Shown here piece by piece: positions 3,457-22,888 of a stretch of 64,000 bases of DNA. The DNA lies in the NCBI RefSeq assembly GCF_003574315.2, contig NZ_AP025739.1:6076001-6140000 (forward strand), read 5' to 3'. The notes below the pieces were generated by a model. That model was given only the letters and a program-made list of their open reading frames with translations. It made no database searches and had not been told where the DNA came from. How positions within the stretch are numbered: position 1 is the stretch's first letter; each line of letters opens with the position of its first letter. The stretch is from Capsulimonas corticalis (GTDB taxonomy: Bacteria; Armatimonadota; Armatimonadia; Armatimonadales; Capsulimonadaceae). The translations under genes and the position numbers were made by a program.

Positions 3457-3459
3457 TCG

Positions 3460-4133: not shown

Positions 4134-4297
4134 CTTGACAGGCGTTTTTATCGCCTGTATAATTTATCACGTGAATCGCGGCCGCCTCACGCGAAGACTT
4201 CCCTGTCCATCTTAACCTCATACACTTTGGCATACATTTTGCTCGGATAATATAACTCTTGCGTCAATTACTGCAAGCCTGGAGATCGACGTCCCTC

Positions 4298-5530
4298 ATG
4301 AGTGTTACCGTCAATAGTTCGTCCGCAACTTCCCCCGATTCGTCAGCCTCCCCCTCTCCCGCGAAGCCAATTCGACTGGATTTTCTGGATGGCATGCGCG
4401 GTCTGGCGGCTCTTTGCGTACTCTTCGTTCATTTGCGCGGACAGTGCATCGAAGGTCTCGCGCATCCGTCCAATCGTCTAATCTCGTCCACGAACTGGAT
4501 GTCGTACGGCAAGGACGCTGTCGCGGTGTTTATCGTCCTTTCCGGATTTTGCCTGATGCTTCCCACGGTGCGCTTCGCCGACAGGCGTTTGAACGGAGGG
4601 CTGCTTCAGTTCTTCAAGCGCCGATCGCTGCGAATTCTTCCTCCCTATTACGCCGCGCTGGTCCTGGGAATCCTGAGTATTCTGGCGGTCGATGTGCTGA
4701 AACGGCATACTCATCTCAGTGACGGAGCGAAAAACGCAGCCGCGAATCTGACAGCGGGCAACATCCTCTCCCACGCATTCCTGATCCATGATTTCCGGAA
4801 CGCCTGGGCTTTTGGCATCGAGCCGCCCATGTGGAGCGTTGCCGTGGAGTGGCATATTTACTTCATATTCGCGCTCCTTCTCCTGCCGTTACGCCGGAAA
4901 GCGGGAATATGGATCACGGTTGCAGCGGCGTTCCTGCTGGGCTGCGCGCCTCATCTTTTGCTGCCGGCGCAAAATAATTTCGACTGGGCCTGCCCGTGGT
5001 TTATCGGCCTCTTCGCCGTCGGGATGCTCGGCGCCGAGATCGCCTTCTCCGATATCCCTTCTCTTGTCTCCATTCGCGATCGAACTCCCTGGAGCGCCGT
5101 GTCGATCGCGCTCGCAATCACCACTTATGGTATCGCGGCGACTTTGCTCAAGCTGAGGGATGTCGATATTATCATGCATCCGCTGCTTGGATGTCTCTGC
5201 GTCAGCGTGATCTTGATGTGCATCCGGCAAGTGCGCTCCGGAAACGCAGCCTTTCCACTGCATCCTCTCCGCATGTTGGAATCTCGCGCGGCGATGATTT
5301 TGGGTTCGTTTTCATACAGCCTCTATTTAGTGCACGGGCTGCTCATCACTCGCGTCCGCGTGTTCATGCAGTTGCACCATTTCCACACACCGGTGTATGT
5401 CCTAGGAGTCCTGGTGGGAGGCGCAGCTCTCTCGCTCATAGCCGCCTACATCTTCCATTTGCTCTTTGAGAAGCCGTTTATGACGGCAAAGATGAAACGA
5501 TTGAAGACCGAAGAAAACCGCGCTCGCTAA
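4298..5530 (+). CDS. Acyltransferase 3 family membrane protein (OafA/YrhL type)
   Basis: This is a polytopic inner-membrane O-acyltransferase of about 410 residues with roughly ten hydrophobic segments. The family's N-terminal signature is present: DFLDGMRGLAALCVLFVH, then VFIVLSGFCLMLP and RRSLRILPPYY. Such enzymes move acetyl or other acyl groups onto extracellular sugars or lipids. It resembles the acyltransferase at 9652-10872 (both have FIVLSGFCL and LLQ/LTAFFK plus LPPYY), so the two are probably paralogs. I use the ATG at 4298 (GGAG 13 bp upstream); an in-frame TTG at 4259 is an alternative. It is monocistronic, followed by a bidirectional terminator. Confidence 0.9.
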   Translation: MSVTVNSSSATSPDSSASPSPAKPIRLDFLDGMRGLAALCVLFVHLRGQCIEGLAHPSNRLISSTNWMSYGKDAVAVFIVLSGFCLMLPTVRFADRRLNGGLLQFFKRRSLRILPPYYAALVLGILSILAVDVLKRHTHLSDGAKNAAANLTAGNILSHAFLIHDFRNAWAFGIEPPMWSVAVEWHIYFIFALLLLPLRRKAGIWITVAAAFLLGCAPHLLLPAQNNFDWACPWFIGLFAVGMLGAEIAFSDIPSLVSIRDRTPWSAVSIALAITTYGIAATLLKLRDVDIIMHPLLGCLCVSVILMCIRQVRSGNAAFPLHPLRMLESRAAMILGSFSYSLYLVHGLLITRVRVFMQLHHFHTPVYVLGVLVGGAALSLIAAYIFHLLFEKPFMTAKMKRLKTEENRAR

Positions 5531-6887: not shown

Positions 6888-9692
6888 ATGTTACGAAAGA
6901 GCATTCTGCTTGTGCTTCTCGCCGCCGCAACCTTGATCTGCGGCGTCCGTGGGAACGCACAAGCGAATTATACAACTTCCTGGTTAGGAAATTCCATGGG
7001 GGGAGCCGGCGGCGCTTGGATGCAAATCGCCGCCAATGCGGTTTATACGGAAGCAAATGGCGCGACTTACGTCAACAGCGTCTACGACGAGAATGGGCGT
7101 GAAGCAGGGATCTACCGTGAAGGAAGTGTTGTCGGCTCCTTTACCGGCCTGCATGGCTGGCAGCGCGGCGGTGGAAAGTGTATTACTGCGGACGACAAGT
7201 ACGTCTATCTTGGAATGGTGCAGAGCGACCTGAATGATAATGGCGCGCACGGGCCGGGTTGGCCGGTCGGCGGCCCAGGAGCTGGCGGAACGGTTACGCA
7301 TGAGTCCTGGTTTGGCGTGCGACGCTATTTCAAGAACGGCCTTCCGGCTCCATGGTCGCAGTCGGGCCGGAAAGATGGCAATAGCAGCAGCATCATCGGG
7401 CTGTTTGACAATAGTATGATCGTCGTCAGTGATAATACTTATGCTGACAAAACGCTCCTGCCGGATGCTGCGATCATGGGTCTTGCTGTCGTCAACGGTC
7501 TCTTGTACGCTTCCGATACGCATTCCAATAAAGTTCGTATCTACAACATCAGCAACTCAAATCGTGTGATTCCCGTGGGCTCATGGAATATTGTTAACGC
7601 CGGCGCGATTGTCTTTGACAAAAACTCACACACGCTCTGGATTGCGCAAACCGGCGACGGCGCGCAAGCGCCCGGCGTGCTGCATTACACCCTAGATGGG
7701 AATAAGCTGCCCCAACAAATCACAGGAATCGGCTGTCCGCGTAGTTTAGCGATCACCCCTCAAGGCAACTTACTCGTCGCCGACAGCGGGCCTGACCAGC
7801 AAGTAAAAATGTACTCAAGCATCAACACCGCTCCCGTCCTCGTTTCGACGCTTGGCAACCCAGGCGGCATCTACAGCGGATTACGCGGACAGGTCGGCGA
7901 CTACAAGTTCAATGGTCTGACCGGCGTCTCCGTCGACGCCGCCGGCAATATCTACGTTGTCACCAATGGCTCCGAAGCTCAAGGGATATTCGGAAGCGGC
8001 GCAACACTGATGAGTTTCAACCAGGATTTCAACTGCCGCTGGAAGTTGGAAGGGCTAGAGTTCATGGACTGCGCCGATGTCGCCCCAGGATCGGACGGCG
8101 CGAATATTTACACCAAGAACAAGCGTTTCAAGCTGGATTTGACGGATCCAACGGCAAAGCCCCAGTATGCGGGTTATACCGTCGATAGCGTCCGTTATCC
8201 CAACGACTCTCGCCTTCACATCAACACCAGCAGTTCGCCGCTAGTCCGTAATATTCAGGGTAAGCAGTTCCTATTCGTTCAGGACACTTATTCAGCATAT
8301 TTACAAATTTATCGCTTTGATACAAAAAACGCCGGCGAAATAGCCATTCCATCCGGGCTGATTGGCGCTTGTCACTCGGCTGCCGGCAAACCGGCGACTG
8401 CGTGGCCCCCTGATACTGTCCAGCCAAGCTTGGGACCGTGGATCTGGCGCGACATTGACGGCAACGGAGATTTCTTCAAGGACGGCGTTCCTCAGAAAGG
8501 CGAATTCGACAATGGTTTGGGGTCCCGCGACCCCTGGCTCACCGCCAGTATCTGGGGATGGTGTGTTGACGAAAACGGCGATATCTGGCAAGTCAGCCGT
8601 GGAACGTCAATGCTCAACGGAGGCATTCGTCACTTTCGATGTCTCGGACTAGACTCTATCGGCAACCCGATTTACACTCTGGCGGCGTCGCAGATCCTGC
8701 CACGCCCGGCTCCGTTCGACGGAACAGCCGGCTCCATCAACCGAATTGAATATGTCGCCGCGACAGACACGATGTATTTGTGCGGCTATACGAATGCTTA
8801 TCCGATTTCGCCTGGCGAATGGGGTCTCGCCGGACGGGTGATTGTTCGATACGATCACTGGAGCACGCCCGCGCGAACACAAACTTACCAGATCGTGCTG
8901 AACTGGAATATGCAGGCGTACCCGCTGATCGGGGCAAAGGCGATGACCGTCAGCGGCGACAAAATCTTTGTTGGATATGTCGCGGGCGCCACTGCTGATT
9001 TTGGAGTTAACGGAGGTCAAATCGTGACATACGATGCAGCTTCGGGCCGTTTCCTTGGGACAATATCCGCTGGGCCTGAAGCTGGAGGAGTGTCCGGACT
9101 GATCGACACAACCTCGGGCCTGCGCGCCTTTACCCGAACCAACGGCGACCAGATGGTATTCGCCGAGGAAGATCTGATGGGCAAAGTGCTGATGTACCGC
9201 GTTTCGGCCCCCGGCGCGGCAGCGACAACGCCTGCCGTTCCCGTATCTGGAACGGGAACGGGCTTGACGGGAAAGTACTATAACGGTTCGCAGCAAGCAG
9301 CCTTCAATAAGCTCATCACAACGCGAGTCGATCCGACCCTTAACTTTCAGTGGACGACGCCGCCTGCCCCCACAATGAACACGGCAGGATACTCAGTACA
9401 ATGGACAGGCAACGTCCAGCCGCGATATTCGGAGACCTACAATTTCCAAACCGATTCCAGCCATGGAGTTCGCGTGTGGATCGACGGAAAAATGGTGATT
9501 GATAGCTGGAATTCCCATTCCTTGCAGACGGATTTCGGCTCCGTGGCGATGCTGGCCGGCACGCAATACAAAATCCGTGTGGAGTACTATCAGATCTCTG
9601 GGACCGGCGCGCTCACGCTCTCATGGTCCAGCGCCAGCCAGATCAAGGAAATTATCCCGCAGACTCAGCTCTATCCGGATGCCCCTCAGTAG
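6888..9692 (+). CDS. Secreted NHL/propeller-like protein with C-terminal PA14 domain
   Basis: The 934-residue product begins with a signal peptide (about 1-26, ending GNAQA). Residues about 30-770 form a long beta-rich region with NHL-like repeats (GVSVDAAGNIYV, LAITPQGNLLVAD). Residues about 790-930 form a PA14 domain (GLTGKYYNG at its start, HGVRVWIDGKMVIDSW in the middle), a carbohydrate-binding module found in glycosidases, adhesins and toxins. No catalytic motif is evident, so it may bind or scaffold polysaccharide outside the cell. Its 3' end overlaps the convergent acyltransferase gene by 41 bp. Confidence 0.85.
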   Translation: MLRKSILLVLLAAATLICGVRGNAQANYTTSWLGNSMGGAGGAWMQIAANAVYTEANGATYVNSVYDENGREAGIYREGSVVGSFTGLHGWQRGGGKCITADDKYVYLGMVQSDLNDNGAHGPGWPVGGPGAGGTVTHESWFGVRRYFKNGLPAPWSQSGRKDGNSSSIIGLFDNSMIVVSDNTYADKTLLPDAAIMGLAVVNGLLYASDTHSNKVRIYNISNSNRVIPVGSWNIVNAGAIVFDKNSHTLWIAQTGDGAQAPGVLHYTLDGNKLPQQITGIGCPRSLAITPQGNLLVADSGPDQQVKMYSSINTAPVLVSTLGNPGGIYSGLRGQVGDYKFNGLTGVSVDAAGNIYVVTNGSEAQGIFGSGATLMSFNQDFNCRWKLEGLEFMDCADVAPGSDGANIYTKNKRFKLDLTDPTAKPQYAGYTVDSVRYPNDSRLHINTSSSPLVRNIQGKQFLFVQDTYSAYLQIYRFDTKNAGEIAIPSGLIGACHSAAGKPATAWPPDTVQPSLGPWIWRDIDGNGDFFKDGVPQKGEFDNGLGSRDPWLTASIWGWCVDENGDIWQVSRGTSMLNGGIRHFRCLGLDSIGNPIYTLAASQILPRPAPFDGTAGSINRIEYVAATDTMYLCGYTNAYPISPGEWGLAGRVIVRYDHWSTPARTQTYQIVLNWNMQAYPLIGAKAMTVSGDKIFVGYVAGATADFGVNGGQIVTYDAASGRFLGTISAGPEAGGVSGLIDTTSGLRAFTRTNGDQMVFAEEDLMGKVLMYRVSAPGAAATTPAVPVSGTGTGLTGKYYNGSQQAAFNKLITTRVDPTLNFQWTTPPAPTMNTAGYSVQWTGNVQPRYSETYNFQTDSSHGVRVWIDGKMVIDSWNSHSLQTDFGSVAMLAGTQYKIRVEYYQISGTGALTLSWSSASQIKEIIPQTQLYPDAPQ

Positions 9693-10872
9693 CGGGACGC
9701 GTTCGTCCGAGCGTCTTTTTTGTGATAAAAGGGCGCTCGAACGCCAGGAAGAACAGGTAGGAGAGCGGCAGACAAATGAGGAGCGCCAGGATCGTGAGCA
9801 GCCAGCCGTTCGTCGTCTGACTGAGTCCCAGAGGCTTAAGCACATACAGGAGCAAAATTTGGATCAGTGGGGCGTGCAGTAGGTAGAGGCTGTAGGAGAA
9901 TTCGCCGACGAAGACCAGAGGCCGCCACTGGAGCGCAATTCGTAGCGGATGATCCTGCGCAAGGGAAATGTAGACGAGCAGGCTAAACGCCCATGCCCCA
10001 ACGATAAAATCGAAATCCGTGGCCTGCGCGCCGAATCCATGCTTAATCTTCACTACAGAAATCAAGATCAGGAGCGCCGTGGAGATGAGCGCCAGCGCTC
10101 CCCACGGCGCTTTGGCGCGCAGGTTTAGCCAACGATCGCCGCTCCCATAGGCGATAGACGCCGCCAGCATTCCAAGACCGAAAAGCAGCCAGAACTGCGG
10201 CATCAGCCCTTGTAACGATGAGTGACGCGTCGCGACGAAGACAACAGTCACCAGTGTGGCAAGTATTCCCAGGGTCTTCCCAGGGCCGATCCGTCGCCAT
10301 CCAAGCAGCAGGACGGGAAAGAGCGGATAGATCTGCCACTCCACGGCCAGCGACCAATAAACATAATTCAGACGATAAAACATATCTCCGAACAGGTTAT
10401 GGATCAGCAGAATGTGTGTGACGATGGATTTTGCAGTCAATGGCAGACAAACATCCCAGCGCATGCCAGTCCGGTGACCGATGACCGTTGCGATCAAGAC
10501 AATCGTCAATATCAAAGAGCAATAGTAAGGCGGCAGCAGTCGGCGAGCGCGCTTAGTGAAGAACGCCGTCAAGCCGCCATGGAGCACAAAATCACGATGC
10601 AATGTCGGCATTATCAAACAGAAACCCGACAGCACAATGAAGATGCAGACGCCGTAATGGCCGAAGCAAAACACGCCCGCAAGCACTCTCTCAATCCCCA
10701 GATAGATGTTCGCGTTACTGTACTGGTAGAGACAGTGGTGAATCAGCACGTAAAGCGCCGCCACCGCGCGCAGGCCATCAAGATAAAGTACGCGCGGCCG
10801 GCTTTTCGCCGAAGAGGAATTGGCGTCCGCCGGATAAGACGCGGAAATGTCAGACGGTAATGCGGTTTCCAT
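9652..10872 (-). CDS. Acyltransferase 3 family protein, last gene of the polysaccharide locus
   Basis: This 406-residue polytopic membrane protein has the acyltransferase-3 signature (VLYLDGLRAVAALYVLIHH, FIVLSGFCLIMP, RLLPPYY). It probably O-acylates sugars of the exopolysaccharide at the membrane. The start overlaps the end of the upstream glycosyltransferase gene by 23 bp, with an AGGGA site inside that gene, so the two are translationally coupled. The tail is basic and the coding end overlaps the convergent PA14 gene. It is close in sequence to the protein at 4298-5530. Confidence 0.9.
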   Translation of the reverse strand: METALPSDISASYPADANSSSAKSRPRVLYLDGLRAVAALYVLIHHCLYQYSNANIYLGIERVLAGVFCFGHYGVCIFIVLSGFCLIMPTLHRDFVLHGGLTAFFTKRARRLLPPYYCSLILTIVLIATVIGHRTGMRWDVCLPLTAKSIVTHILLIHNLFGDMFYRLNYVYWSLAVEWQIYPLFPVLLLGWRRIGPGKTLGILATLVTVVFVATRHSSLQGLMPQFWLLFGLGMLAASIAYGSGDRWLNLRAKAPWGALALISTALLILISVVKIKHGFGAQATDFDFIVGAWAFSLLVYISLAQDHPLRIALQWRPLVFVGEFSYSLYLLHAPLIQILLLYVLKPLGLSQTTNGWLLTILALLICLPLSYLFFLAFERPFITKKTLGRTRPATEGHPDRAESAG

Positions 10873-12067
10873 TCGTCCCTTTTTTCGCAGCGAAACGGTC
10901 GTACAGATCGATCGTTTGATCGGCAGCCATATCCCAGGTATAGCGGCTCAGAACATACCGCCGGACAACATCCGCCGTCAGCCGATCGCCCCAGTCGGTT
11001 TTGAAAAACTCGATAATCGCCTCGCCGATCGCCTCGCTGCTCGCTTCGCGCGCCAGCAGTTTCGGCTCCAGCGGAGCCAGCAGTTCCGGAATAGCGCCCA
11101 CCGGGGCGCCGATTACCGGCGTACCGCAGGCGAGACTTTCCACAATGACAAGGCCGAAGCCTTCCAGCGCCGTGGTCGGCAGCACAAAGAGATCGGCCGC
11201 GCCGTAAAGCCCCGCAAGATCTTCATCCGGAACGAAGCCAGCGAAGTGGATCGAGCCGTCGACACAAAGATCCTTGGACAACTGCTCCAGCCGCGCGCGT
11301 TCCGGCCCCTTGCCGGCGATTACGAGATATAAATCCGGGACTTCGCGCAAGACGGCGGGCATCGATCGTACGAGATTTTCCAGCCCCATCCGCGCCGCAA
11401 GACGCCGCACAGTCAGAGCGATTGGCCGATCGACCGGAAGGCCAAGGCGCTCCCGCAATGCATGGGTGTCTTTGGGAACATGGAACCGTTCGACATCAAC
11501 CCCGCCGTCGATCCGCGCGATCCGCTCCGACTTCACATCGAAATGATCGGTCAGAATTCCCGACATAAAGGCGCTGAGCGAAATGATGCTTTCGGCGCGG
11601 CGGAGGCTGTCCTGCTCCACCCAATGACGCGCCGTCCGCTTGGCGCGCGCCTTCGCGATCCCCAGCCCGCCACGCGCCTTAGAGGTATCCTCGACCCACC
11701 CTTCTTCACACCAGGGGCCGTGAAATGTGCGAACCGTTGGAACTCCGCGCAAAGCGCTGCTCCAAAGCGGGCCAACTCCGGCGTAGGCGAAATGAATGTG
11801 CGCGATGTCGAACGGGCCAAAACGTTTGACGATGTCTTCGCAGGCGCGCCGCATTCCGGCGACGCCGGCCTTACTGCGCGGCGCCCGCACGACGGTCACT
11901 CCGTTCCAGAGTTGCTCCTCGTAAGGCTTGCCTTCAATGACCTGGTTGACCAGCAGCACCACACCGTGTCCGCGCTTCACCAGGCATCGCGCGAGTTCCT
12001 TGGCCGCCGTTCGGCTGCCGCCCGGCTTGTCTTCAAAAACGGCGTCCGCAATGAGTAAGATGTTCAT
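10850..12067 (-). CDS. Glycosyltransferase family 4
   Basis: The 405-residue product is a GT-B retaining glycosyltransferase. The N-terminal lobe starts MNILLIADAVFEDKPGGSRT. The C-terminal donor-binding lobe carries the GT4 signature near residue 300 (LPTTALEGFGLVIVESLACG, with the E-x7-E pair). It probably adds one sugar to the lipid-linked repeat unit on the cytoplasmic face. It starts 5 bp after the hexapeptide acyltransferase stop. Donor and acceptor cannot be read from sequence. Confidence 0.92.
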   Translation of the reverse strand: MNILLIADAVFEDKPGGSRTAAKELARCLVKRGHGVVLLVNQVIEGKPYEEQLWNGVTVVRAPRSKAGVAGMRRACEDIVKRFGPFDIAHIHFAYAGVGPLWSSALRGVPTVRTFHGPWCEEGWVEDTSKARGGLGIAKARAKRTARHWVEQDSLRRAESIISLSAFMSGILTDHFDVKSERIARIDGGVDVERFHVPKDTHALRERLGLPVDRPIALTVRRLAARMGLENLVRSMPAVLREVPDLYLVIAGKGPERARLEQLSKDLCVDGSIHFAGFVPDEDLAGLYGAADLFVLPTTALEGFGLVIVESLACGTPVIGAPVGAIPELLAPLEPKLLAREASSEAIGEAIIEFFKTDWGDRLTADVVRRYVLSRYTWDMAADQTIDLYDRFAAKKGTNGNRITV

Positions 12068-12072: not shown

Positions 12073-12537
12073 TTACTGTATCGTGCTTGTATCCGGCGAT
12101 TCCGTTCGCACCGGCCGCGCGGGCATGGCGACGACTACCTGTCCAGGAGCCACATCCTTCACCACGAGCGCGCCTGCTCCGACCTTGGCCCCCTTACCGA
12201 TCACGATGCCCCCATGTTCGTTGCCGACAATGATCGCGTGAGCGCCGATTGTGACATCATCCTCAATCACAATGCGATATGGCGACCCAACCCATGTCTC
12301 CGCGGCGAGCGAGACATGGTGATAGAGCTTTACGCCGCGCCCAATGGTGACATTGGGGTGGACGCAAACTCCCAGCCCGAGATGCTCCAATTTCAGATCC
12401 GGCTGAATTTGCGCTTCAAAGGGAAGCAGACAGCGAAAACAGAAATAGTTGACAGTCTTCAATATCTTGGCGAGAAGCTTGAGCTTCCGTTGGTGCGCCC
12501 AGCAGCTAAAATACCAAATTCGCGCCGGATTGAACAC
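12073..12537 (-). CDS. Left-handed beta-helix acyltransferase (CysE/WbbJ-like)
   Basis: A 154-residue protein with hexapeptide repeats over about residues 50-145 (GLGVCVHPNVTIGRGVKLYH, then IEDDVTIGAHAIIVG, IVIGKGAKVGAGALVV). It closely resembles the C-terminal half of serine acetyltransferases and the sugar acetyltransferases of capsule clusters. The start is a GTG that shares its first base with the ACP stop codon (TAGTG), so it is translated together with the ACP. Next to an ACP and an FkbH enzyme, it may take its acyl group from the ACP rather than from CoA; that is inference. Confidence 0.85.
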   Translation of the reverse strand: MFNPARIWYFSCWAHQRKLKLLAKILKTVNYFCFRCLLPFEAQIQPDLKLEHLGLGVCVHPNVTIGRGVKLYHHVSLAAETWVGSPYRIVIEDDVTIGAHAIIVGNEHGGIVIGKGAKVGAGALVVKDVAPGQVVVAMPARPVRTESPDTSTIQ

Positions 12538-12773
12538 TAAGAAATCCCCTTTTGGGATAAAACGTCGCGAATGGCGGCGTAATCGCGCATCGAGAGAAGC
12601 TCCGAATCGGTAAACTGCACGTCGAACTCTTCCTCAAGAGTGGCGGCGAGGACCATCGACCCCATCGAATCCCAGGCGTCCAGCGTATCGACGGAGATAT
12701 CTTCGGAAACATCCTCCGGGGACAGCTCAAACGATTCCGCAAAAACCTTTTTGAGACGCGTATCTAAACTCAT
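12537..12773 (-). CDS. Acyl carrier protein
   Basis: This is a 78-residue ACP, normal in length, with the phosphopantetheine attachment motif DSMG at Ser36 and the flanking helices (DTLDAWDSMGSMVLAATLEE). It is not in a fatty-acid operon. Its start overlaps the FkbH stop by 4 bp and its stop overlaps the acyltransferase start by 1 bp, so it is a dedicated carrier for this module. It probably holds the acyl group made by the FkbH enzyme. Confidence 0.93.
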   Translation of the reverse strand: MSLDTRLKKVFAESFELSPEDVSEDISVDTLDAWDSMGSMVLAATLEEEFDVQFTDSELLSMRDYAAIRDVLSQKGIS

Positions 12774-14614
12774 TCCTCTACCTCACTCATCGATCCTTCA
12801 ATATTCAATTCGTCCGTCACAATCAGCCAGTTCGGCGATTCCGCGAGCGGCCCGCGCAGATCCAACTTCCACCATCCATCGCCGCGCTCCGGATCGGGCT
12901 CAAAGCCGTTCGAGGGGAAGAGTTCCGTCACCAGGCCGTTTTTCGGAGTGGGAATATACTGTCCCAGCAGCCGCGTGCATCCGCGCTTTAAGCCCGCGTG
13001 CGCCAGCGAGGACAGAAGCGCCTGCTCGACGCCCCGTCCGATCACACGGCAGCTCATCAGAAGCGTGTCGATCACCGCCATGTCACCCTCGGCATGGACA
13101 AAAGCGGCGGCGATAATGCCGGCGTCGTCAAAGCGGTCCTTGAGCTGCGCGTAGCAGACGAGCCAATCTTCGGAGTTCGCCATCGCCGTGACCTGCTCTT
13201 CCGAATATCGGCGCGTCGTCACATTAAACTGGTTGGTTTTTTGTGTCAATTGCGCGATGCGCGGAATGCTGAACGCGCTGACCGGCGCAATCGTCAGGTT
13301 GATCTCCAGCGACCGCAGATACTCCTCCATCGAGCCGACGGACTGCTTCAGCTCATGGCGCTGCGCCTCGGCCTGGTACATCGTGCTCCGGCGCCGGTCT
13401 TCATCATTGAGCGCCAGGGTGTCGAAATTCGCCTTGTCATAAAGCTCGGCGGCGAATCGTGTGGGATCCGCCGGCAATTGGATGACCTTGACCTGAGGAA
13501 GCGCCTCGCGGACAAACTCACACTCAAACGGATTGTCGTCTACAAACACAAGGCTGTCAAGGCCAATGTTTAATTCCTGAGCAATTTCGCGCAGATTGGA
13601 CGCCTTATCGGACCAGTTGACGCGCTTTGCGACGAAGTGATGGGTTTTGAGGAGCGACGATGGATGCTTCTCGAAGACTTCCATCGCATCCGCCTCATTG
13701 TTCTTGCTGTTCAGCGCGAGCAAAACACCACGATGGTATAAATCGATAATCGCCGCGTGGAATTCAAGAAACGCCGATCCGGGATGCGTCGCGCCCAGCT
13801 TGATCCCGTCCATGCCGTCCTCGCCGATCACTCCGCCCCACAGCGTATTGTCGCAGTCCAGCACGAGACATTTCTTGTTTTTGCCTTTGAGCGCGGCGGC
13901 GAACTTCACATATTCGGCTGCCAGCCGGCGCTGCAGCGCCAGCGTGTACGGCGCGCGCCCAATGTGCCAGTAACGGTTGTCGATGGCGCTGTCGTAGCCG
14001 ATTCGCGAGATCAGATGATCGACATCGACAATATAGGCGCTTCCGATCGTTTCTATCTGTTCGCGCAGCAGTGCGTTCAGGCGGCGAATCACGACATGCT
14101 GCCCGTATGACGACTGAGCGTCCAAAACGCCATAACTGGGAATGGCGCTCAGCTCGAAGTTGTTGACGAGAATAACAGCCGAGCTTCGCTCCCGAACGGC
14201 GCGCACGAACGAAACCACACGATTGAGAACCGATTCCACTTGCGTGTCGCACTCTTCGGGGCTAAGGCTCGCGAAAGATCCCACCAGCGCGGGAGCCAGC
14301 GTGTGCAGCCGCATGGCGAAGGCCACGATATCCGGCTGGAATTGATACAGATCGCTGCCGTCCATAAAGACTTCCTGCGGAGCGCTGTCAAATCCGCTCA
14401 GAAAGATCTCTGGCTTTAAGCCGGCGGCATAGCTCTTGACCTTCAGACACGGTGCGAATGTCGGCTCCAGCGTGAAGTTTCGCAGCACCGCGATCTTCAC
14501 TGGGACCAGCGTCTCATCAGTGATCTTATCCAGCTTGCCGGCCGCCGAAAGATGGCGTGCGGTGGAGGGATCCGAATCCAGCCAGTTCAATGTTTCGAGT
14601 ATGGTTGTCGTCAT
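12770..14614 (-). CDS. FkbH-like HAD-IIIC enzyme (acyl-ACP loading)
   Basis: The 614-residue product has three parts. Residues 1-240 form an FkbH-type N-terminal (SGNH-like) domain. The HAD phosphatase domain has nucleophile motif LDCDNTLWGG (Asp253, Asp255) and motif IV VDDNPFE (Asp359/360). A GNAT-like tail covers about 450-590. Characterised FkbH enzymes capture 1,3-bisphosphoglycerate, dephosphorylate it and load D-glycerate on an ACP. The adjacent ACP gene (4-bp overlap) fits this. In a polysaccharide locus it suggests glyceroyl or a related acyl decoration, but other acyl groups are possible. Confidence 0.88.
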   Translation of the reverse strand: MTTTILETLNWLDSDPSTARHLSAAGKLDKITDETLVPVKIAVLRNFTLEPTFAPCLKVKSYAAGLKPEIFLSGFDSAPQEVFMDGSDLYQFQPDIVAFAMRLHTLAPALVGSFASLSPEECDTQVESVLNRVVSFVRAVRERSSAVILVNNFELSAIPSYGVLDAQSSYGQHVVIRRLNALLREQIETIGSAYIVDVDHLISRIGYDSAIDNRYWHIGRAPYTLALQRRLAAEYVKFAAALKGKNKKCLVLDCDNTLWGGVIGEDGMDGIKLGATHPGSAFLEFHAAIIDLYHRGVLLALNSKNNEADAMEVFEKHPSSLLKTHHFVAKRVNWSDKASNLREIAQELNIGLDSLVFVDDNPFECEFVREALPQVKVIQLPADPTRFAAELYDKANFDTLALNDEDRRRSTMYQAEAQRHELKQSVGSMEEYLRSLEINLTIAPVSAFSIPRIAQLTQKTNQFNVTTRRYSEEQVTAMANSEDWLVCYAQLKDRFDDAGIIAAAFVHAEGDMAVIDTLLMSCRVIGRGVEQALLSSLAHAGLKRGCTRLLGQYIPTPKNGLVTELFPSNGFEPDPERGDGWWKLDLRGPLAESPNWLIVTDELNIEGSMSEVEE

Positions 14615-14644: not shown

Positions 14645-15814
14645 TTACTCTGAAATCGCCGCGGCGACCGGTTCGGAGACACGGGCAGTCTCGGAAGCGC
14701 TTTCCAGAGCTGCGTGATGAATCTTTTTTGCCTTTGTGCTGATGAATGGCTTTTCAAAAAACTGGAAAAACACACGCCCAAACAACACCGCGCCGATCAT
14801 CACGAGAACGAACACCGCGTAATGGAAGGTCATTGGCAGGTGGAAACGCTTGAAGACCTGGCTAATAATTCCAATACTGAATGTGTGCGTCAAATACAAG
14901 CTGTAAGAGTAAAGACCGATCGCGGCCAACCCACGACAAATCGGAGCCGCCGCAATCTTGGCGTCATACCGGTAGCAGGCCAGCACGAGGGCGGCGAACG
15001 CCAGAGAAATAGCGAACTGAGTGCGACTCGATACCCCCATAGTGCCGAGCGGAGTATCCCGAAATAAAATGAGCGCCAGCGTCGCGGCGACCGCCGCCGC
15101 CGCCCAGGCGATTGTCGCCTTATCATAGCGCGTCCGAATGAGATCGTACACGATCACGCCCAGACCGAATTCCGGCCAAAGATCCAGAGGATAGCGCAGA
15201 CAGTGCGGATTGACGATCAGCGCAATCAGCGCCGCCACGGTCAATGCATGCAGCGCCGTCAGCACGGACTTCTCGCCGTAGCGGACGCCGAACGCCGCCA
15301 GAGCAAGCCCAACAAACAGATAAAACGCCACCTCATAGCACAATGTCCAGCACTGTACGAGAACAAAGTCCGTGGGAAAGACGCCATTTGTCAGCGTATA
15401 GTTGACAAGGAAGTATTCCAGCCCTCGGCTCCAAACGCTTTTTTCCGCCGCCGTACTGGAGGCGACCAGTCCATGCGAGACGAGCGCGGAAGCAAAAGTA
15501 CTGTACAAAAGACCGAACGTAATCGCGATCGCGGCCGTAGGATAGATTCGCCGCACGCGCGCTTTGAGGAAATACAAGACGCTGCTGTCCTTGCGGAGCG
15601 CGCCCGACATTGCGCTCGCAATGCAGTAGCCGCTGATCACGAAAAACATCTGCACGCCTGAGTTGCCGTACGCTGTCAAACGGTAGAGTGGATTGGCGCC
15701 GAGCTGAGGATATCGCGCGATCATCACCTCCGCCATATGAAAAGCAATCACCCAGAGACAGGCAATACCGCGAAACGCGTCCAAAATAAGAAACGGCTTG
15801 ATTTTAGTGGGCAT
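14645..15814 (-). CDS. Acyltransferase 3 family membrane protein
   Basis: About 389 residues with around ten membrane segments. The signature is FLILDAFRGIACLWVIAFHM, VQMFFVISGYCIASAM and RRIYPTAAIAI. I start at ATG 15814 because MPTKIKPFLI begins the conserved first helix; an upstream in-frame ATG would run deep into the preceding glycosyltransferase. It lies 11 bp after that gene and 30 bp before FkbH. It is the most likely membrane partner to acylate the polysaccharide outside the cytoplasm. Confidence 0.9.
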   Translation of the reverse strand: MPTKIKPFLILDAFRGIACLWVIAFHMAEVMIARYPQLGANPLYRLTAYGNSGVQMFFVISGYCIASAMSGALRKDSSVLYFLKARVRRIYPTAAIAITFGLLYSTFASALVSHGLVASSTAAEKSVWSRGLEYFLVNYTLTNGVFPTDFVLVQCWTLCYEVAFYLFVGLALAAFGVRYGEKSVLTALHALTVAALIALIVNPHCLRYPLDLWPEFGLGVIVYDLIRTRYDKATIAWAAAAVAATLALILFRDTPLGTMGVSSRTQFAISLAFAALVLACYRYDAKIAAAPICRGLAAIGLYSYSLYLTHTFSIGIISQVFKRFHLPMTFHYAVFVLVMIGAVLFGRVFFQFFEKPFISTKAKKIHHAALESASETARVSEPVAAAISE

Positions 15815-15825: not shown

Positions 15826-16983
15826 TCAGGCGCCGACGATCGACGGCTGACGGGTCTCTCGTACTTTGGATGCAATGGCTCCGTAAACATCCAGGTAGGA
15901 TTGCGCCATGCTGTCCCATCCATGATTCTCGGCGGCGCCGCGCGCCGCCAGTCCCATCGAGCGCCGACGCTGAGGATCCGAGCTCAAATCGATAATTGCT
16001 TTGGCGAGGGCTTGTTCGTCATTGGGATCCTCAAGCACAACGCCGAGATCCTGCGTAATCAAATCCGTGGCGCCGGCCGTCGACGCCGTGACGATGGGAA
16101 GCCCGGACGCCATGGCCTCCAAAATCGCCAGAGAACAAGCCTCGTATCGCGAGGGAAAGACGAAAAGATCGGCGGCGCGCATCAGCTTCGCGACATCGCG
16201 CCGGAATCCCAGGAAATGGGCGCGATCTCCAACCCCAAGATCCTTGGCCAGCTGCGGATATGGGCTTCCGTCGGTCTTTCCGCCAATCGCGAGATGTACT
16301 CCCGGAGCATGGACCAGCGCCTTGAGCACGGTATCGAGATTCTTGCGCGGAGACCGGATGTCCCCCGTGAACAGGGCCAGAACCACATCCTTCGGCAGCC
16401 CAAGCGACGCGCGGTCCTCGCTTCCCGGATGGAACTCCAGCAGGTCCACGCCGTTATAGATTACCTCGATGCGCTCCGCCGGCACACCAATCTCCATAAG
16501 TTCGCGGCGGATGCCGTCTGAGACAGCAACCACTTTGCGCGCTTTCTGAAAGACGGACCGCTCCCACCGCGCATTGACGGCGGTGTACGTCCATTGATAC
16601 GCGCCGTACAAGTCTTTCCGGACGTGAGAGATGTGTGCGGGAGACTTCAGCCACGCGCCATGTACGAAATGCGCGGCGTTGACTTGGTGCGGCAGATCGA
16701 GCGAGCACCCATTTCCATGGATGATATCGAGATCGCCAGCAATCGGCTTAAGCGCAGTGTTGGCGCGCTGCGCAAATTCCCACGCGGTGATAATATTCGG
16801 CGTGCGGACGCGCGGACGCACCGGGACCCATTTCGCCCCTGCGGCTAAAAGGGAATCATCGACAGCGCTCGTAATCAACGTAACGTCATTGCCTTGCGAC
16901 AGCGCGTAACGCGCGATCTCGTAGTTGACGCGTCCTTGTCCGTCACCACGCACGACTTTCTGGGTGACGATGCCTATCTTCAT
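15826..16983 (-). CDS. Glycosyltransferase family 4
   Basis: A GT-B enzyme of 385 residues. The N-terminal lobe begins MKIGIVTQKVVRGDGQGRVN. The donor lobe has the GT4 signature FVFPSRYEACSLAILEAMAS and the basic residues after VIYNGVDL. The chosen start at 16983 overlaps the stop of the upstream polymerase/ligase gene in an ATGA, whereas the longer frame would run into that gene. It is one of four GT4 enzymes in the locus. Confidence 0.92.
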   Translation of the reverse strand: MKIGIVTQKVVRGDGQGRVNYEIARYALSQGNDVTLITSAVDDSLLAAGAKWVPVRPRVRTPNIITAWEFAQRANTALKPIAGDLDIIHGNGCSLDLPHQVNAAHFVHGAWLKSPAHISHVRKDLYGAYQWTYTAVNARWERSVFQKARKVVAVSDGIRRELMEIGVPAERIEVIYNGVDLLEFHPGSEDRASLGLPKDVVLALFTGDIRSPRKNLDTVLKALVHAPGVHLAIGGKTDGSPYPQLAKDLGVGDRAHFLGFRRDVAKLMRAADLFVFPSRYEACSLAILEAMASGLPIVTASTAGATDLITQDLGVVLEDPNDEQALAKAIIDLSSDPQRRRSMGLAARGAAENHGWDSMAQSYLDVYGAIASKVRETRQPSIVGA

Positions 16984-18431
16984 ACAATGACCTTTCGCTG
17001 AGATCGATCCAGCGCTCCCAGGCATGTCCAGACAATCATCGATGTCGTATACTCTCCTCCGATCAGCCACTGCCCGAGGTAGACAATGAGAATCGCCAAT
17101 ACAGAGAGAAGGACAGGGATGCGCGTCTTATGCCACATTTTGATCGCAAGCGCAAAACTGAGGATCAAGAATGCAAGATACAGAAATCCGCCGACAAATC
17201 CCAGAGCCGTAAAGACGTTGGTAATGTCGATCTCGGAGTTGTTGCCTTCATTGCTGAACTTGGTCGAGGCAAGCGTCGTTGAGCCAAGGCCGTATCCGAT
17301 GGGGGTGGTAAACCCCTTGAGGAAACCGCCCGCCGCAAGGTTCATATGCACTCCCACCGTGGACTTGCTGCCGTCCGTGGGGTTGAGAATACCATCAGTC
17401 TGATGCTTGACCAGCGCCGATGTCGTGCTGGTGGATGGGTCAACGTTCGCGGTGCTCTCCTGCACGCGGGTCATCGTAAAGACCAATCCAAGTGTGGCGA
17501 CCACCAGCGCGATGCCTCCGCGAAAAAACCAGCTCTTCCGATCCTTTGCCATCACCGCCCACAAGATACACATGGCGCCCAGAAGGGTGATGAGGGCGCC
17601 CCGGCTCGAGGCCATGAACATCCCATAAAGCATCACCGGCACCAGGATCAAACCGATGCGCTTCTTGAACAGCAGGCCGACGAACAACAAGATGGAGCCG
17701 GCGGCAATCACGTGGGCGTACTCCGCGAAGGAAGGAAGCGTCGAGAAAGCCCGCTGCATACCCGGTGTCAGCGCCCAGGAGTAGTGGGTGGTTCTCAGCC
17801 AATCCGCTTCGGCGTCGGAGTAACCAAATGAGCTCTGGTAGAAACCGTACGCCGCCACCCCGACCGTCATCCAGGCAAACGTCTGTAGGTAAGAGGAAAG
17901 TCGGTTCAGATCGAGTAAGTCACGGCCGACGAAGTACCAAAAAATGGGGACGATGTAAAAAAGCGCGCCGACCACGCCCACTTCAATTCCGCCCTGCAAC
18001 GGGTTGAAGATCTCAATCGTCATCAGACTTAAGAGCAGAAAGACGAACTTCGTCATCTTACTGACGGCTCGGCCTCGCGTGCGCCACATGGCGGACCCGC
18101 CAAAAACAATCGCCACGCCGGGCGCAACCAGCAGAAGCGGATCCGTCTCCACCCAGTCAAAGTACGGCGTGAGAGCGCGACGCACCCAACCCATGAGCAC
18201 GAGATAGCCCATGGTAGCCACCATCCCGGTCAGCGGCGCCATTCGCGTGAGCACAACAAGCAGCAGTGTCAGGACAGCGGCGAGCAGACCGCGCTGCGCG
18301 ACGGCGTTTCCCGTGAACGCGGGAGAAATCGCCAGCAGCGCGGCCCCCGCCCCCGCGACGGTTAAAAGTGATCCACGCCAGCCAAATCGGCGCGGAGCCA
18401 AATGCTGGAATGGCGCGACATTATTGATCAT
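16980..18431 (-). CDS. O-antigen ligase/polymerase-like membrane protein (Wzy/WaaL type)
   Basis: 483 residues with about twelve hydrophobic segments, the topology of Wzy polymerases and O-antigen ligases. A large loop of roughly 75 residues lies near residues 310-400 (STANVDPSTSTT to SNEGNNSEIDIT), in the place of the periplasmic loop of the Wzy_C family. Sequence cannot separate polymerase from ligase. Because it sits in an ATGA-coupled string with flippase and glycosyltransferase genes, it is my first choice for the repeat-unit polymerase. Confidence 0.82.
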   Translation of the reverse strand: MINNVAPFQHLAPRRFGWRGSLLTVAGAGAALLAISPAFTGNAVAQRGLLAAVLTLLLVVLTRMAPLTGMVATMGYLVLMGWVRRALTPYFDWVETDPLLLVAPGVAIVFGGSAMWRTRGRAVSKMTKFVFLLLSLMTIEIFNPLQGGIEVGVVGALFYIVPIFWYFVGRDLLDLNRLSSYLQTFAWMTVGVAAYGFYQSSFGYSDAEADWLRTTHYSWALTPGMQRAFSTLPSFAEYAHVIAAGSILLFVGLLFKKRIGLILVPVMLYGMFMASSRGALITLLGAMCILWAVMAKDRKSWFFRGGIALVVATLGLVFTMTRVQESTANVDPSTSTTSALVKHQTDGILNPTDGSKSTVGVHMNLAAGGFLKGFTTPIGYGLGSTTLASTKFSNEGNNSEIDITNVFTALGFVGGFLYLAFLILSFALAIKMWHKTRIPVLLSVLAILIVYLGQWLIGGEYTTSMIVWTCLGALDRSQRKVIV

Positions 18432-20290
18432 GCACTCGCCTCAGAGACGCCGGACTGACTGCGGCGCCAGGCCGCGCGTCCGGTTTTGCGCCCGCTTAAG
18501 GACGCCTTGCAACGTGAAATCACCAACGCTTTTTCCTTCGGAAGCAAACGCAGAACCTGGACCAATCCTGGACACACTCTCGTGCCGACCAGGATGCTCC
18601 AAACGATAAAGGCAATCCGGCGCGGTCCGGGCAGATAATCGAGTAGCGCGATAGTCTCGTTATGCGCGATGTTGGACAACGCCACCGCATTGAACTGGTT
18701 GCGTTGGTCCTCATCAAAGCGCACGCTCGCATGATGGTCCACCGCGACCTCGGGATCGTAAATCAGTTTCCATCCCGAGCGCGCCAGCTGCAGGCTAAAC
18801 GCCATATCGTTATTGGACTGCGCGCCAGTGCCCCGTAATCGTGTGTCAAATCGCTGATGGATCGCCGCCGAACGACGATAACTCATATTGACGCCCTTTA
18901 GCACTTCGACATCGCGCGCTGGACCGACTCCCAGGTGATGATTGCCCGAAACGCGTCCGTACCAGCTGACGCGCCCGACAACCTCACGGGAGCCATCGAG
19001 GATTGCGCCGCGTTCGTGAACCCAATCCCGGCCACCCACACCGCCTACGGATGGGTCGGAGGCGAAATGGCTGACGACCCGCTCCAGCCATTGCGGGCGC
19101 GGCGCGGCATCGTCATCGGTAATCGCGACAATATCTCCCTTGGCGGCTTCCCAGCCGGCGTTCAGTGCGGCGACTTGACCGATCTCATAGCTGGGGACAA
19201 CGCGGACCTCAGGAAGGATCGCCGCCTCGCTGCGCAGGAAGGAAAGCGTATCGTCGTCCTCGGGCCGGGCCACGACCAGGATTTCCGTCGGCGGATGCGT
19301 CTGCGTTTTCAGCGCGAGCAGGCATCGCTTCAAGTCTGACGGCCGCCGATATGTCGGAACGACGACGCTTGTGGTCAATGTTTCCGCAGATGCGCTCTTC
19401 GGCCGCGCGAGGGTTGTGGGAGACACCGTGGATTGAGACAATGACCTTCTCCGCGCCTCCATTCGATAATATTGAAACGCCGTGCGCACGGATTCTCGGG
19501 CGTGACGAATATTTGCCGGCTTCCCTGTTCTCAATGCGTGAAGCATCAGGTGAAGAGGAGCGAGGACAGAGAACGCCGCCGCCTTCCCCGGCTTCTTCTG
19601 CAGCCACCGGTAGCGCTTGTAAGCGGAGTAAAGCCGCGACGCCTCAATCACCCGCGAATATTCCGCGCGGTTAATGTCGGATGGAAAGTGATCGTTGAAC
19701 AAATCCGGCGCGAACTCAAAGCGGTACCCATGCGCCTGAGCCTGAGCCGCAATGTCCGCCTCTTCGTATCCGTAGCGCAGCGCCTCGTCGAAGCGCGCCT
19801 GAGAAAACAAAGCGCGAGGAAAGAGCGTCGCATTGATCACGATAGCGCGGCAGTCTTCAGAGCCTAGAATCGGAACACTCTGATGTCCCCAGAAGGAAAC
19901 ATTGCCGGGGCTGATCTCCTGGCCGTTCTTGCGCTCGCGCCCGGTCACGATCGTCTTTGTCGGCGACTTCGACAGAATGGCGGCCGCCGCGCCTAAAAAC
20001 TCGGGAGTATAGGCGGCGTCATCGTCGATGAACGTCACGGCTTCGATATCGCCTTGAAGGCTGTCGAGGCAGCAATTGCGATTGGAGGCCAGCCCACGCC
20101 TCGGTCCGCGAAGGTAGGTCACGCCGGCAAACTCATTGCAGACGCTTTGCGTCGAAGCGGCTTGATTGTCGTCGCTGTCGTCGGAGACAATGATCTGGGC
20201 CGGGCGCGTCAGGGAAGCGGATATTGATTTCAGCGCCTTCCGCAAATCGTCGGGACGATTGCGAGTGCAGATACAAACGGCGATCTTCAT
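18428..20290 (-). CDS. Two-domain glycosyltransferase family 2
   Basis: 620 residues carrying two GT-A domains. The first (about 1-260) begins MKIAVCICTRNRPDDL and has a DDD metal motif in VTFIDDDAAYTPEF. The second (about 305-560) begins TTSVVVPTYRRPSDL with the matching VAITDDDAAPRPQW. A basic linker separates them. Each half has a full nucleotide-binding core, so the protein may add two sugars in sequence. ATGA overlaps join it to the flippase gene upstream and the polymerase-like gene downstream. Confidence 0.9.
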   Translation of the reverse strand: MKIAVCICTRNRPDDLRKALKSISASLTRPAQIIVSDDSDDNQAASTQSVCNEFAGVTYLRGPRRGLASNRNCCLDSLQGDIEAVTFIDDDAAYTPEFLGAAAAILSKSPTKTIVTGRERKNGQEISPGNVSFWGHQSVPILGSEDCRAIVINATLFPRALFSQARFDEALRYGYEEADIAAQAQAHGYRFEFAPDLFNDHFPSDINRAEYSRVIEASRLYSAYKRYRWLQKKPGKAAAFSVLAPLHLMLHALRTGKPANIRHARESVRTAFQYYRMEARRRSLSQSTVSPTTLARPKSASAETLTTSVVVPTYRRPSDLKRCLLALKTQTHPPTEILVVARPEDDDTLSFLRSEAAILPEVRVVPSYEIGQVAALNAGWEAAKGDIVAITDDDAAPRPQWLERVVSHFASDPSVGGVGGRDWVHERGAILDGSREVVGRVSWYGRVSGNHHLGVGPARDVEVLKGVNMSYRRSAAIHQRFDTRLRGTGAQSNNDMAFSLQLARSGWKLIYDPEVAVDHHASVRFDEDQRNQFNAVALSNIAHNETIALLDYLPGPRRIAFIVWSILVGTRVCPGLVQVLRLLPKEKALVISRCKASLSGRKTGRAAWRRSQSGVSEASA

Positions 20291-21615
20291 AAGGAAGCGG
20301 CTTCCGAAGCAGCCGCGTTCTTGCGGCTCTTGATATTCACGAGAGCAGTTCGCGCATAAGCGAGATCGGCGGCGCTGGGTCTCATCGACGCGATGCTGTC
20401 CTTGCCGAACTCACGAGCGAAGTAGTAAATCAAAACGAATAAATTGACAAAGTAACCACATGTTGACGCAATGCTTGCTCCGACAATTCCCCATCGAGGC
20501 AGCAAGGTCAGCAACAGAATGCACATCACAACAAGCGACGCCGCCTCTGCGGTGGATGTCGTCATCGGTTTCCCCGCCGCTCGTAGCGCGGCGCTGATAT
20601 TTGTCCCCACCCCTAGGGCCACCACGCCGGGAAGCAGCCAATAGATCGCCGGAACGGAGCCGGCGAACTTGTGCCCCCAGACCAGCGGGACCAGAACCGG
20701 AGCGATCAGATACAAGGCCGAGCCGCCAACGATTCCGATGATGAGCGTCCAGCGTACGCTCATCGCCGCATGGGCCGCCTGCTTACGCGAATCCGTCTCG
20801 GCGGCGACCTTCGGGAAGAGAACCATGGAAATTGAGCATGCGCATTGATGGAGCAGCTCCGAGAACGTTACGGCGAATACGTACAAGCCGAGCGCCTGCG
20901 GGCTCACCATCGCCGTCATCAGCAGCTGGTCTAATCGTCCATTCGCCGTGTTCGCCAGCGTCCCAAGATGAACTCTCCAGGCGTAATCGAGCGACTGTTT
21001 GACCAGTCCCCAATCCGGCCGAAGCCTCCATCCAAGATCACGCACCAAAGTCACGAGAGCAAACGCCAGCGCCGTATAAGAACCTGCCCAGGTCGAAAGG
21101 ATCGCAGTCTGAACGGTAACACAGTGAAACGCCCAGAAGCCAAGCAAGGCGATGACCGTCACGAGCTGCGGCGCAATCCTGAACAACGAGAACTTGCCGA
21201 ATTTTGCGCCGCCGTAAATCAGCCAGCCGAGATAATCCGAAAGCAGAGAAACCGGCAGCATCCACATGCTGAAAAGGAACAGCGCCCGGTTGTGCACGGT
21301 GAGATGGACGAAATGCGGCAGGATCGTCACCGCCAGAGCGGTAAACGGCAAGCCAACGATCAGCGCCATCCAAATCGAGTTCGCGAACAGCGAAGCGCGA
21401 AGCTCGGGCCGCGACGCCGCGAGATAGGCGTTCGCCTGTCCGAAGCTGAGGCCGCACGCCCAGGAAAGCATCAAGGGCCAGAGCAGAACGGAGGCGCGCT
21501 CGCCGTTACCATACGGACCAAGTGTGCGCGCGAGAATGACGCCAATCCCCAGCTGGATCACGTTCATCCCGAGACTAGTGAAAAGATTGAGCGCTGTGTT
21601 GCGAAGTGATCGCAT
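20287..21615 (-). CDS. Polysaccharide flippase (Wzx/MOP superfamily)
   Basis: 442 residues with 12 to 14 predicted helices and the MOP/RfbX layout (NTALNLFTSLGMNVIQLGIG at the start). Such proteins flip the undecaprenyl-linked repeat unit across the inner membrane before Wzy polymerisation. It lies 61 bp after the Wza-type gene and overlaps the double GT2 gene. Confidence 0.88.
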   Translation of the reverse strand: MRSLRNTALNLFTSLGMNVIQLGIGVILARTLGPYGNGERASVLLWPLMLSWACGLSFGQANAYLAASRPELRASLFANSIWMALIVGLPFTALAVTILPHFVHLTVHNRALFLFSMWMLPVSLLSDYLGWLIYGGAKFGKFSLFRIAPQLVTVIALLGFWAFHCVTVQTAILSTWAGSYTALAFALVTLVRDLGWRLRPDWGLVKQSLDYAWRVHLGTLANTANGRLDQLLMTAMVSPQALGLYVFAVTFSELLHQCACSISMVLFPKVAAETDSRKQAAHAAMSVRWTLIIGIVGGSALYLIAPVLVPLVWGHKFAGSVPAIYWLLPGVVALGVGTNISAALRAAGKPMTTSTAEAASLVVMCILLLTLLPRWGIVGASIASTCGYFVNLFVLIYYFAREFGKDSIASMRPSAADLAYARTALVNIKSRKNAAASEAASL

Positions 21616-21676
21616 AAAAGGATAAGCCAGTTCTGATGAGACGAAATCTTATGACTTTGAGACGCCGCCATATTTT

Positions 21677-22888
21677 TTAACGGCGGACAAACAAGCTCAA
21701 GGCCGGGATGAGCACGGCGAAATCGCGGATTCCCAAAGGCGGATGTCCCTTTGTGGGAACATAAAGGATATCATCCGGCTGAAGCGCGACATTCGTTGTT
21801 CCCGGCTTAGCGGCCAGCACTTCGTCCAGGTTGACCTTGATCGTCGTCACTTTACCGTCCGAACCTTTTCGCAGGATATTCGCCTCGCGTTTGTTCGCCT
21901 CACCGGTGGGACCGCCCGCCGTCGCCAGCGCGTCGGACACCGTCACGCCTTGATCATCCGGATATGCGTAGGCTCGCGGAGCGGCGACTTCGCCCAGAAC
22001 CGCGAAGCGCAGCTTGTTCTCGGGAATCAAAAGCACATCGCCGGGCACAAGGCGGGGCGACGCAGCCGAATCGCTGAGCGAAGACAAGAGCGGCCGTAAA
22101 TTCACGGTGCGCACTTCGCCGTTGTGCATCACCTGCGCCTGCGCCAGCGCGGCGTCGTCGGTGGGTCCGCCCGCCTGCGCCAGCAGGCTGGTGATCGTGC
22201 CGCCGCCGGCGGGAACGGAATACGAGCCAGGATGCAGCACATGACCGCTGACCTGCACCTGAGCAACCGAGGGATCGCGCTGCTGAACCAGCAGAACGTC
22301 GCCGGGCTGAAGCGGAAGATTGAGCGTGTCGTCCTGCCCCTGCATCAGCTTCTCGACATTGATCGGCACGCTGGTCTTGCCGTTGTCCCGGATCAGCGTC
22401 GCCTGTGTCAGTGAGTTGTCCTGTGAGGCGCCGCCGCAGGCGGCGAAGGCCTCCATCAAACGCCAGCCGGGCTTGACGCTGTAAAGGCCTGGAGATCGTA
22501 CGGCGCCCAGGATGCTCACCTGCTGAGGCGCGCTGCTGCGCACGACGATCGTGACCGAGGGCTGGTTCAACTGATCGCTCAGGCGATGCGTCAGCGCCGC
22601 CGTCAACTGCGCCACCGTCAAGCCCTGGGCGCCGATATGTCCCGCGATCGGGAAATTAAAGCTGCCGTCCGGCAGGATCGTCACCGACGACTTCAAGTCG
22701 TCATGCCCCATCACGGAGATATCCAGCGTATCGCCGACTGCGAGTTTGTATGACGCCGGGATTGACGCCACGTTAAGCGCACCGATCCCCGGGGTAGACG
22801 CATCCGCCAGCGCCGCGTTCGATAGTGCGCCAAAGGCGAACGGCGCGATGAACGCCGCCGCGAAAAGTGAAGTCTTGCTCAATTTCAT
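21677..22888 (-). CDS. Polysaccharide export protein (Wza-like, SLBB domains)
   Basis: 403 residues. A signal peptide (about 1-28) is followed by the Poly_export domain (YKLAVGDTLDISVMGHDDLK at about 48) and then three SLBB-type beta-grasp repeats (QVSILGAVRSPGLYSVKPG, VQVSGHVLHPGSYSVPAGG, FAVLGEVAAPRAYAYPDDQ). I see no lipobox cysteine, unlike E. coli Wza. A hydrophobic C-terminus (about 385-400, FAVLIPALSLFVRR) could anchor it. Its start overlaps the Wzc stop in an ATGA. Confidence 0.92.
   Translation of the reverse strand: MKLSKTSLFAAAFIAPFAFGALSNAALADASTPGIGALNVASIPASYKLAVGDTLDISVMGHDDLKSSVTILPDGSFNFPIAGHIGAQGLTVAQLTAALTHRLSDQLNQPSVTIVVRSSAPQQVSILGAVRSPGLYSVKPGWRLMEAFAACGGASQDNSLTQATLIRDNGKTSVPINVEKLMQGQDDTLNLPLQPGDVLLVQQRDPSVAQVQVSGHVLHPGSYSVPAGGGTITSLLAQAGGPTDDAALAQAQVMHNGEVRTVNLRPLLSSLSDSAASPRLVPGDVLLIPENKLRFAVLGEVAAPRAYAYPDDQGVTVSDALATAGGPTGEANKREANILRKGSDGKVTTIKVNLDEVLAAKPGTTNVALQPDDILYVPTKGHPPLGIRDFAVLIPALSLFVRR

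Follow-up and report, generated by a model that had tools for sequence, protein, structure and literature searches.

Among the nearest relatives of the locus treated here are the operons for tetronates (Mad7/Mad8 and relatives) and for methoxymalonyl-ACP (FkbH, OzmB), in which an FkbH-type HAD enzyme is found together with a stand-alone acyl carrier protein (ACP). In OzmB, a characterised FkbH relative, a glyceryl group is carried on a cysteine and then handed to the ACP. The closest solved FkbH relative is BF1531 of Bacteroides fragilis (PDB 3slr); this structure covers only the N-terminal part (the SGNH-like and HAD domains), and its entry title does not characterise a function. FkbH genes are also found near glycan genes. 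According to its annotated record, pSymB of S. meliloti carries, near rkp-type export genes, genes for MBOAT, one other protein, ACP and FkbH in this order. In C. jejuni the fkbH-domain gene cj1302 belongs to the flagellar glycosylation locus (PMC7099621), and flagellin bears di-O-methylglyceric acid on its pseudaminic acid (PMC3068675). Finally, GmACP3 of Geobacter metallireducens is a specialised stand-alone ACP which, as PMC4847154 relates it, was proposed to act in LPS biosynthesis (Ramelot et al. 2011).

We analysed a stretch of 64,000 nucleotides of Capsulimonas corticalis (contig NZ_AP025739.1, positions 6,076,001 to 6,140,000), called the window below. The genome is a single contig of 7.6 Mb and the FkbH of the window is its only one. 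This FkbH lies in an operon for exopolysaccharide (EPS) which extends from 9652 to 30570 on the minus strand and has the following parts:

29845-30570, minus strand: initiating sugar-phosphate transferase (PF02397)
15826-30570, minus strand: rest of the EPS operon, with a GT4, a 483-aa protein, a GT2, a Wzx-like flippase and a Wza-like SLBB export protein and, up to 30570, a Wzc-like ATPase, a Wzy-like polymerase and two GT4
15826-17070, minus strand: GT4b, a GT4 glycosyltransferase, first in the transcription order GT4b, AT3a, FkbH, ACP, HEX, GT4a, AT3b
14645-15814, minus strand: AT3a, membrane acyltransferase of 389 aa upstream of FkbH (PF01757, 83 bits)
12770-14614, minus strand: FkbH-type enzyme, 614 aa (TIGR01686, 327.5 bits)
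12537-12773, minus strand: stand-alone ACP, 78 aa, phosphopantetheine site Ser36 (PF00550)
12073-12537, minus strand: HEX, SAT-like hexapeptide (left-handed beta-helix) acyltransferase, 154 aa (PF00132; PDB SAT matches)
10850-12067, minus strand: GT4a, glycosyltransferase downstream of HEX (PF00534)
9652-10872, minus strand: AT3b, a membrane acyltransferase whose gene ends the operon, two genes downstream of HEX (PF01757, 109 bits)

The start of AT3a was set at the ATG at 15814 because the open reading frame, which starts at 15919, overlaps the upstream GT4. The FkbH and ACP frames overlap by 4 bp, and the stop TAG of the ACP gene shares one base, 12537, with the start GTG of HEX, while 5-31 bp separate these three from the EPS genes next to them: the overlaps together with the short spacing imply co-expression. 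All the families by which we recognise a Wzx/Wzy-dependent system (PF02397, PF01943, PF04932, GNVR/AAA_31, Poly_export/SLBB and PF00534/PF00535) are in the operon, which is, judged by its gene content, a complete Wzx/Wzy-type EPS operon. The initial annotation had described three overlapping genes in an exopolysaccharide locus with a membrane acyltransferase next to them, and this description holds in every part: the three frames are found with their 4-bp and 1-bp overlaps, AT3a precedes FkbH, and the initiating transferase, the GT4 and GT2 genes and the Wzy-, Wzc-, Wza- and Wzx-like genes are all present. The 483-aa protein (16980-18431, minus strand) has no Pfam or NCBIfam match; its homologues (about 33%) directly adjoin an orthologue of HEX in two other loci (L105, L112), and from context only it is probably an EPS membrane protein. 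The window also holds a third PF01757 membrane acyltransferase (4259-5530, plus strand) and two aconitase-superfamily loci which flank the EPS region (2023-4086, plus strand; 32722-35613, minus strand), one of them split in two genes (LeuC/LeuD-like) and the other single-chain.

The window thus has, as the tetronate and methoxymalonyl-ACP operons do, an FkbH-type HAD enzyme with a stand-alone ACP. Unlike them, it has no KAS III, E2-type acyltransferase, dehydrogenases, O-methyltransferase or PKS adjoining the pair; glycosyltransferases and acyltransferases stand there instead. The likeness to S. meliloti pSymB extends to the surroundings: adjacent ACP and FkbH genes, an O-acyltransferase beside them and polysaccharide export genes nearby. 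The membrane acyltransferase of pSymB is however an MBOAT protein, whereas the window has PF01757 proteins and a hexapeptide enzyme. With C. jejuni, compared by its description, the window has in common an FkbH-domain gene in a glycan locus, the glycan of C. jejuni carrying a glyceric-acid derivative; there the acceptor is a nonulosonate on a protein, here it would be a Wzx/Wzy EPS.

The identification of FkbH is firm: its score against TIGR01686, the model of the glyceryl transferase/phosphatase family (E 8e-98), exceeds the curated cut-off of 146.65 and HAD motifs I-IV are intact, in agreement with the initial annotation. An AlphaFold2 model (pLDDT 92.9) was compared with known folds, and the best matches were 3slr (Z 28.3, rmsd 2.8, 28% identity over 375 residues), 1u7o (Z 17.5) and GNAT chains (Z about 15). 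Three domains are predicted from this comparison: an SGNH/GDSL-like N-domain (about 37-246), a HAD phosphatase domain of the MDP-1 fold (about 240-402) and a GNAT-fold C-domain (about 437-589). The residues of HAD motifs I-IV (D253, D255, S303, K337, D359 and D360) are invariant in 91 of 91 FkbH homologues, and so is Cys522 of the GNAT-fold domain. In the model C522 comes directly after a strand of that domain, in the context SCRVIGRGVE, which resembles a GNAT cofactor loop. Among the 91 homologues is the FkbH of a tetronate-like operon of Methylosinus (KAS III, FkbH, ACP, E2-type acyltransferase, hydrolase, PKS), 35% identical to that of the window; a second tetronate-like operon was found in Pseudalkalibacillus. 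The HAD motifs and the invariant Cys of these tetronate-like homologues are identical to those of the window FkbH, which looks catalytically intact as far as its residues tell. By analogy with OzmB, we infer that C522 would be the site of the acyl thioester. Cys254, in the DCDNT motif, was also considered as the acyl-carrying cysteine and was rejected because most homologues (77 of 91) have a Leu at that position.

The ACP scores 28.1 bits against PF00550 (cut-off 20.8), with Ser36 in the motif DAWDSM, and the ACP with its Ser36 is thereby borne out. It differs from the genome's own fatty-acid ACP. Its second-best PDB match is 2lml, a putative ACP with the same WDS motif, which we take to be GmACP3; if so, this motif is common to GmACP3 and the window ACP, and the likeness covers the ACP alone. 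Over the whole genome we found one match to phosphopantetheinyl transferase (PPTase) and six to the carrier domain. Four carrier-protein domains lie in large open reading frames (1080-1899 aa) at G000:C1:2978219-2996892, near 2.98 Mb, which probably form an NRPS/PKS-type cluster elsewhere in the genome.

From homology, from the catalytic residues, all intact, and from the ACP paired with it, we conclude that FkbH would load an acyl group onto this ACP, most likely D-glyceryl from 1,3-bisphosphoglycerate: as read from the sequences, a glyceryl-loading pair is well supported. Since the pair lies inside an EPS operon, decoration of the polymer would be its simplest use. We favour, at slightly better than an even chance, a reading in which a two-gene FkbH-ACP loading cassette was acquired horizontally into an existing Wzx/Wzy EPS operon and glyceryl-ACP is passed on to the polymer. 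The HAD domain would first bind 1,3-bisphosphoglycerate and remove the 3-phosphate; the glyceryl group would then be held as a thioester on Cys522 in the GNAT-fold domain and then move on to the phosphopantetheine attached to Ser36 in the ACP. These three steps are taken over from characterised FkbH proteins (OzmB and the tetronate or methoxymalonate pathways). In a fourth step, one of the operon's acyltransferases, membrane-bound or cytoplasmic, would transfer the glyceryl group onto a hydroxyl or amine of a sugar in the repeat unit. This step, and the choice of AT3b, HEX or AT3a as its transferase, is a guess.

The module described in the initial annotation can be read as giving this transfer to HEX, with FkbH, ACP and a CysE-like HEX as one dedicated unit in which the glyceryl (or another) group goes from the ACP to the polysaccharide in place of acetyl-CoA. 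One point for such an assignment is that the translational coupling of the operon is tightest at FkbH-ACP-HEX, with the 4-bp and 1-bp overlaps. Hexapeptide enzymes can moreover use acyl-ACP, as LpxA and LpxD do, and hexapeptide genes adjoin FkbH in six sampled loci (L011, L021, L046, L054, L062, L085). HEX itself has EpsC and CysE as its nearest models and scores far below both equivalog cut-offs (77.3 against 150 and 72.3 against 210.65 bits, respectively), which rules it out as a true EpsC or CysE; the SAT-like hexapeptide character (PF00132) stands. In the orthologue alignment HEX keeps His51, aligned with a catalytic SAT His, and is without the second SAT His.

The distribution of HEX argues against its assignment to FkbH. 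Among 291 genomes of the phylum, HEX orthologues were found in ten other genomes (E < 1e-34, 43-56% identity), the next match being at 6e-17. An FkbH above the family cut-off is absent from nine of these ten genomes, one of which (G082) has a weak sub-threshold match; the tenth, G001, is an incomplete assembly from the same genus with FkbH on a different contig from HEX. Where FkbH is lacking, the orthologues of HEX are found within EPS loci. In G001 the syntenic locus (L139) has the gene order of the window minus FkbH, ACP and AT3b, with AT3a (67%), HEX (54%), GT4a (80%) and a PA14-domain gene (69% identity to the window genes); AT3a-HEX-GT4 hence occurs without FkbH-ACP. The hexapeptide neighbour of another FkbH-ACP pair from the window's family (L011), and the hexapeptide proteins adjoining FkbH in other phyla, are of other families than HEX. 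HEX as a conserved partner of FkbH is thus rejected and the single dedicated module finds no support; within the operon, only the ACP is tied to FkbH by conservation. As its orthologues occur without FkbH, HEX must, at least elsewhere, use another donor, presumably acetyl-CoA. We regard it, from its distribution, as an EPS acyltransferase of the phylum which is normally independent of FkbH-ACP, with acetyl-CoA as the simplest donor. Since the identity between HEX and its G001 counterpart is 54%, below the 67-80% of its neighbours, HEX may have been exchanged on arrival of the cassette; the HEX tree leaves the position of the window and G001 proteins unresolved. Altogether we consider HEX unlikely to be the dedicated transferase. 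Of the proposal that the FkbH-ACP acyl group decorates the polysaccharide, what stands by homology is the loading pair in an EPS operon, and what finds no support is HEX as a member of the module.

AT3b is another candidate user of acyl-ACP, suggested by its absence, along with FkbH and ACP, from the G001 locus. The genome however holds eleven matches to AT3b, and AT3-type enzymes usually depend on acetyl-CoA, so this joint absence in one relative is weak evidence.

As to the origin of the pair, FkbH was found in 9 of 61 genomes, that of the window counted. When 91 FkbH proteins were placed in a tree by a quick method, the window FkbH grouped with those of Acidovorax, Frankiaceae, Roseateles, Sericytochromatia and a methanogen (SH-aLRT 99), and the FkbH proteins of G001 and G003, from the same genus and family, branched away from it. 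The simplest reading of these sequences is that the two-gene cassette was gained horizontally; it may instead have been lost from G001, the single comparison not distinguishing the two. Base composition was uninformative on whether the pair is foreign DNA: FkbH has 57.7% and the ACP gene 52.3% GC against 59.6% for the window, and their third-position GC is near the range of the operon. An accessory, horizontally acquired pair could also be a mere passenger of the EPS operon and serve another pathway, for example the carrier-domain cluster near 2.98 Mb with its large multi-domain carrier-protein frames. We hold this to be quite improbable, for the co-expression implied by frame overlaps and 5-31 bp spacing ties the pair to the EPS genes, and in other phyla too it recurs near glycosyltransferases.

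This recurrence was seen in a survey of loci taken from contigs of GTDB species, with eight added from relatives of the window. Of the 76 FkbH genes with sufficient flanking sequence, 57 have an ACP gene on their own strand no more than 300 bp away; for the remaining genes of at least 250 aa in these loci the figure is 44 of 626 (Fisher p = 2e-39, a conservative value because some of the comparison genes also neighbour those ACPs). Many bacterial phyla are represented in the sample, and archaea as well. The archaeal FkbH genes (L027, L029, L031, L034-L037, L040, L043, L045, L057) belong to Asgard, Nitrososphaerota, Nanoarchaeota and Micrarchaeota lineages; nearly all have an adjoining ACP, and several have opposite-strand hexapeptide genes nearby. 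Of the 53 loci whose FkbH is flanked by 5 kb in each direction, at least 28 have a GT4 or GT2 gene within 10 kb, which is a lower bound. In annotated records, a Rhodobacteraceae plasmid has ACP-FkbH-MBOAT near a sulfotransferase and Niveispirillum has FkbH-ACP-WcbI; in Maritalea (L153), FkbH lies among pseudaminic-acid genes, beside pseB and a gene of the N-acetylneuraminate synthase family. FkbH-ACP pairs beside glycan genes are accordingly of a known kind, present in public records, and the survey of such pairs that the initial annotation had called for finds them adjoining glycan genes in many phyla.

Most frequent among the 97 immediate neighbours of FkbH are MaoC (14), SDR (13), MBOAT (8), phosphopantetheinyl transferase (6), hexapeptide (6) and GNAT (4) proteins. 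MaoC-SDR fusions recur beside FkbH-ACP in several phyla (L012 2728-4278, L019 1703-2929, L075 8730-9923), suggesting that the unit bound to the ACP undergoes a dehydratase/reductase step; with so many MaoC-SDR or KAS III neighbours, the glyceryl-ACP of those loci is probably processed further. In one of them (L075 8730-15897), MaoC-SDR, FkbH and ACP lie in what appears from sequence to be a nonulosonate glycan locus (NeuB/NeuC-like, NeuD-like). The same could apply to the window: genes elsewhere might supply enzymes that dehydrate, reduce, methylate or elongate the C3 unit on the ACP, and what reaches the polymer or a small molecule might then be a different acyl group, such as hydroxyacyl or O-methylglyceryl. 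MaoC-SDR, KAS III and methyltransferase genes are frequent beside FkbH, including in loci of the clade to which the window FkbH belongs (L019, L026, L075, L076), and C. jejuni, with its fkbH-domain gene and di-O-methylglyceric acid, would fit this reading. The window operon has however no MaoC-SDR, KAS III or methyltransferase genes; MaoC-SDR and KAS III genes, absent from the window near FkbH, could lie elsewhere in the genome. Such a modification here seems rather improbable to us, and transfer of the glyceryl group itself stays the preferred reading. In the literature on FkbH with exopolysaccharide, O-antigen or glyceroyl we found no paper on FkbH in polysaccharide biosynthesis, nor one demonstrating the biochemistry of FkbH-ACP in glycan loci; the few records on gellan included no paper on its glyceryl transferase.

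More broadly, and only tentatively, FkbH-ACP may be a general unrecognised route in bacteria and archaea that leads from 1,3-bisphosphoglycerate to surface glycans decorated with glycerate or a group derived from it; MBOAT, hexapeptide, GNAT, WcbI and AT3 transferases would be interchangeable in it, and the window would be one horizontally acquired example. The same pair beside glycan genes in many phyla makes the idea of a glyceryl-ACP donor testable, and one genus offers a natural comparison, the same locus occurring with the pair in the window and without it in G001. If glyceryl-ACP is the donor, a carrier protein, and not acetyl-CoA, would link glycolysis directly to the acylation of a surface polymer, and the pair would be a swappable two-gene means of changing the chemistry of an EPS.
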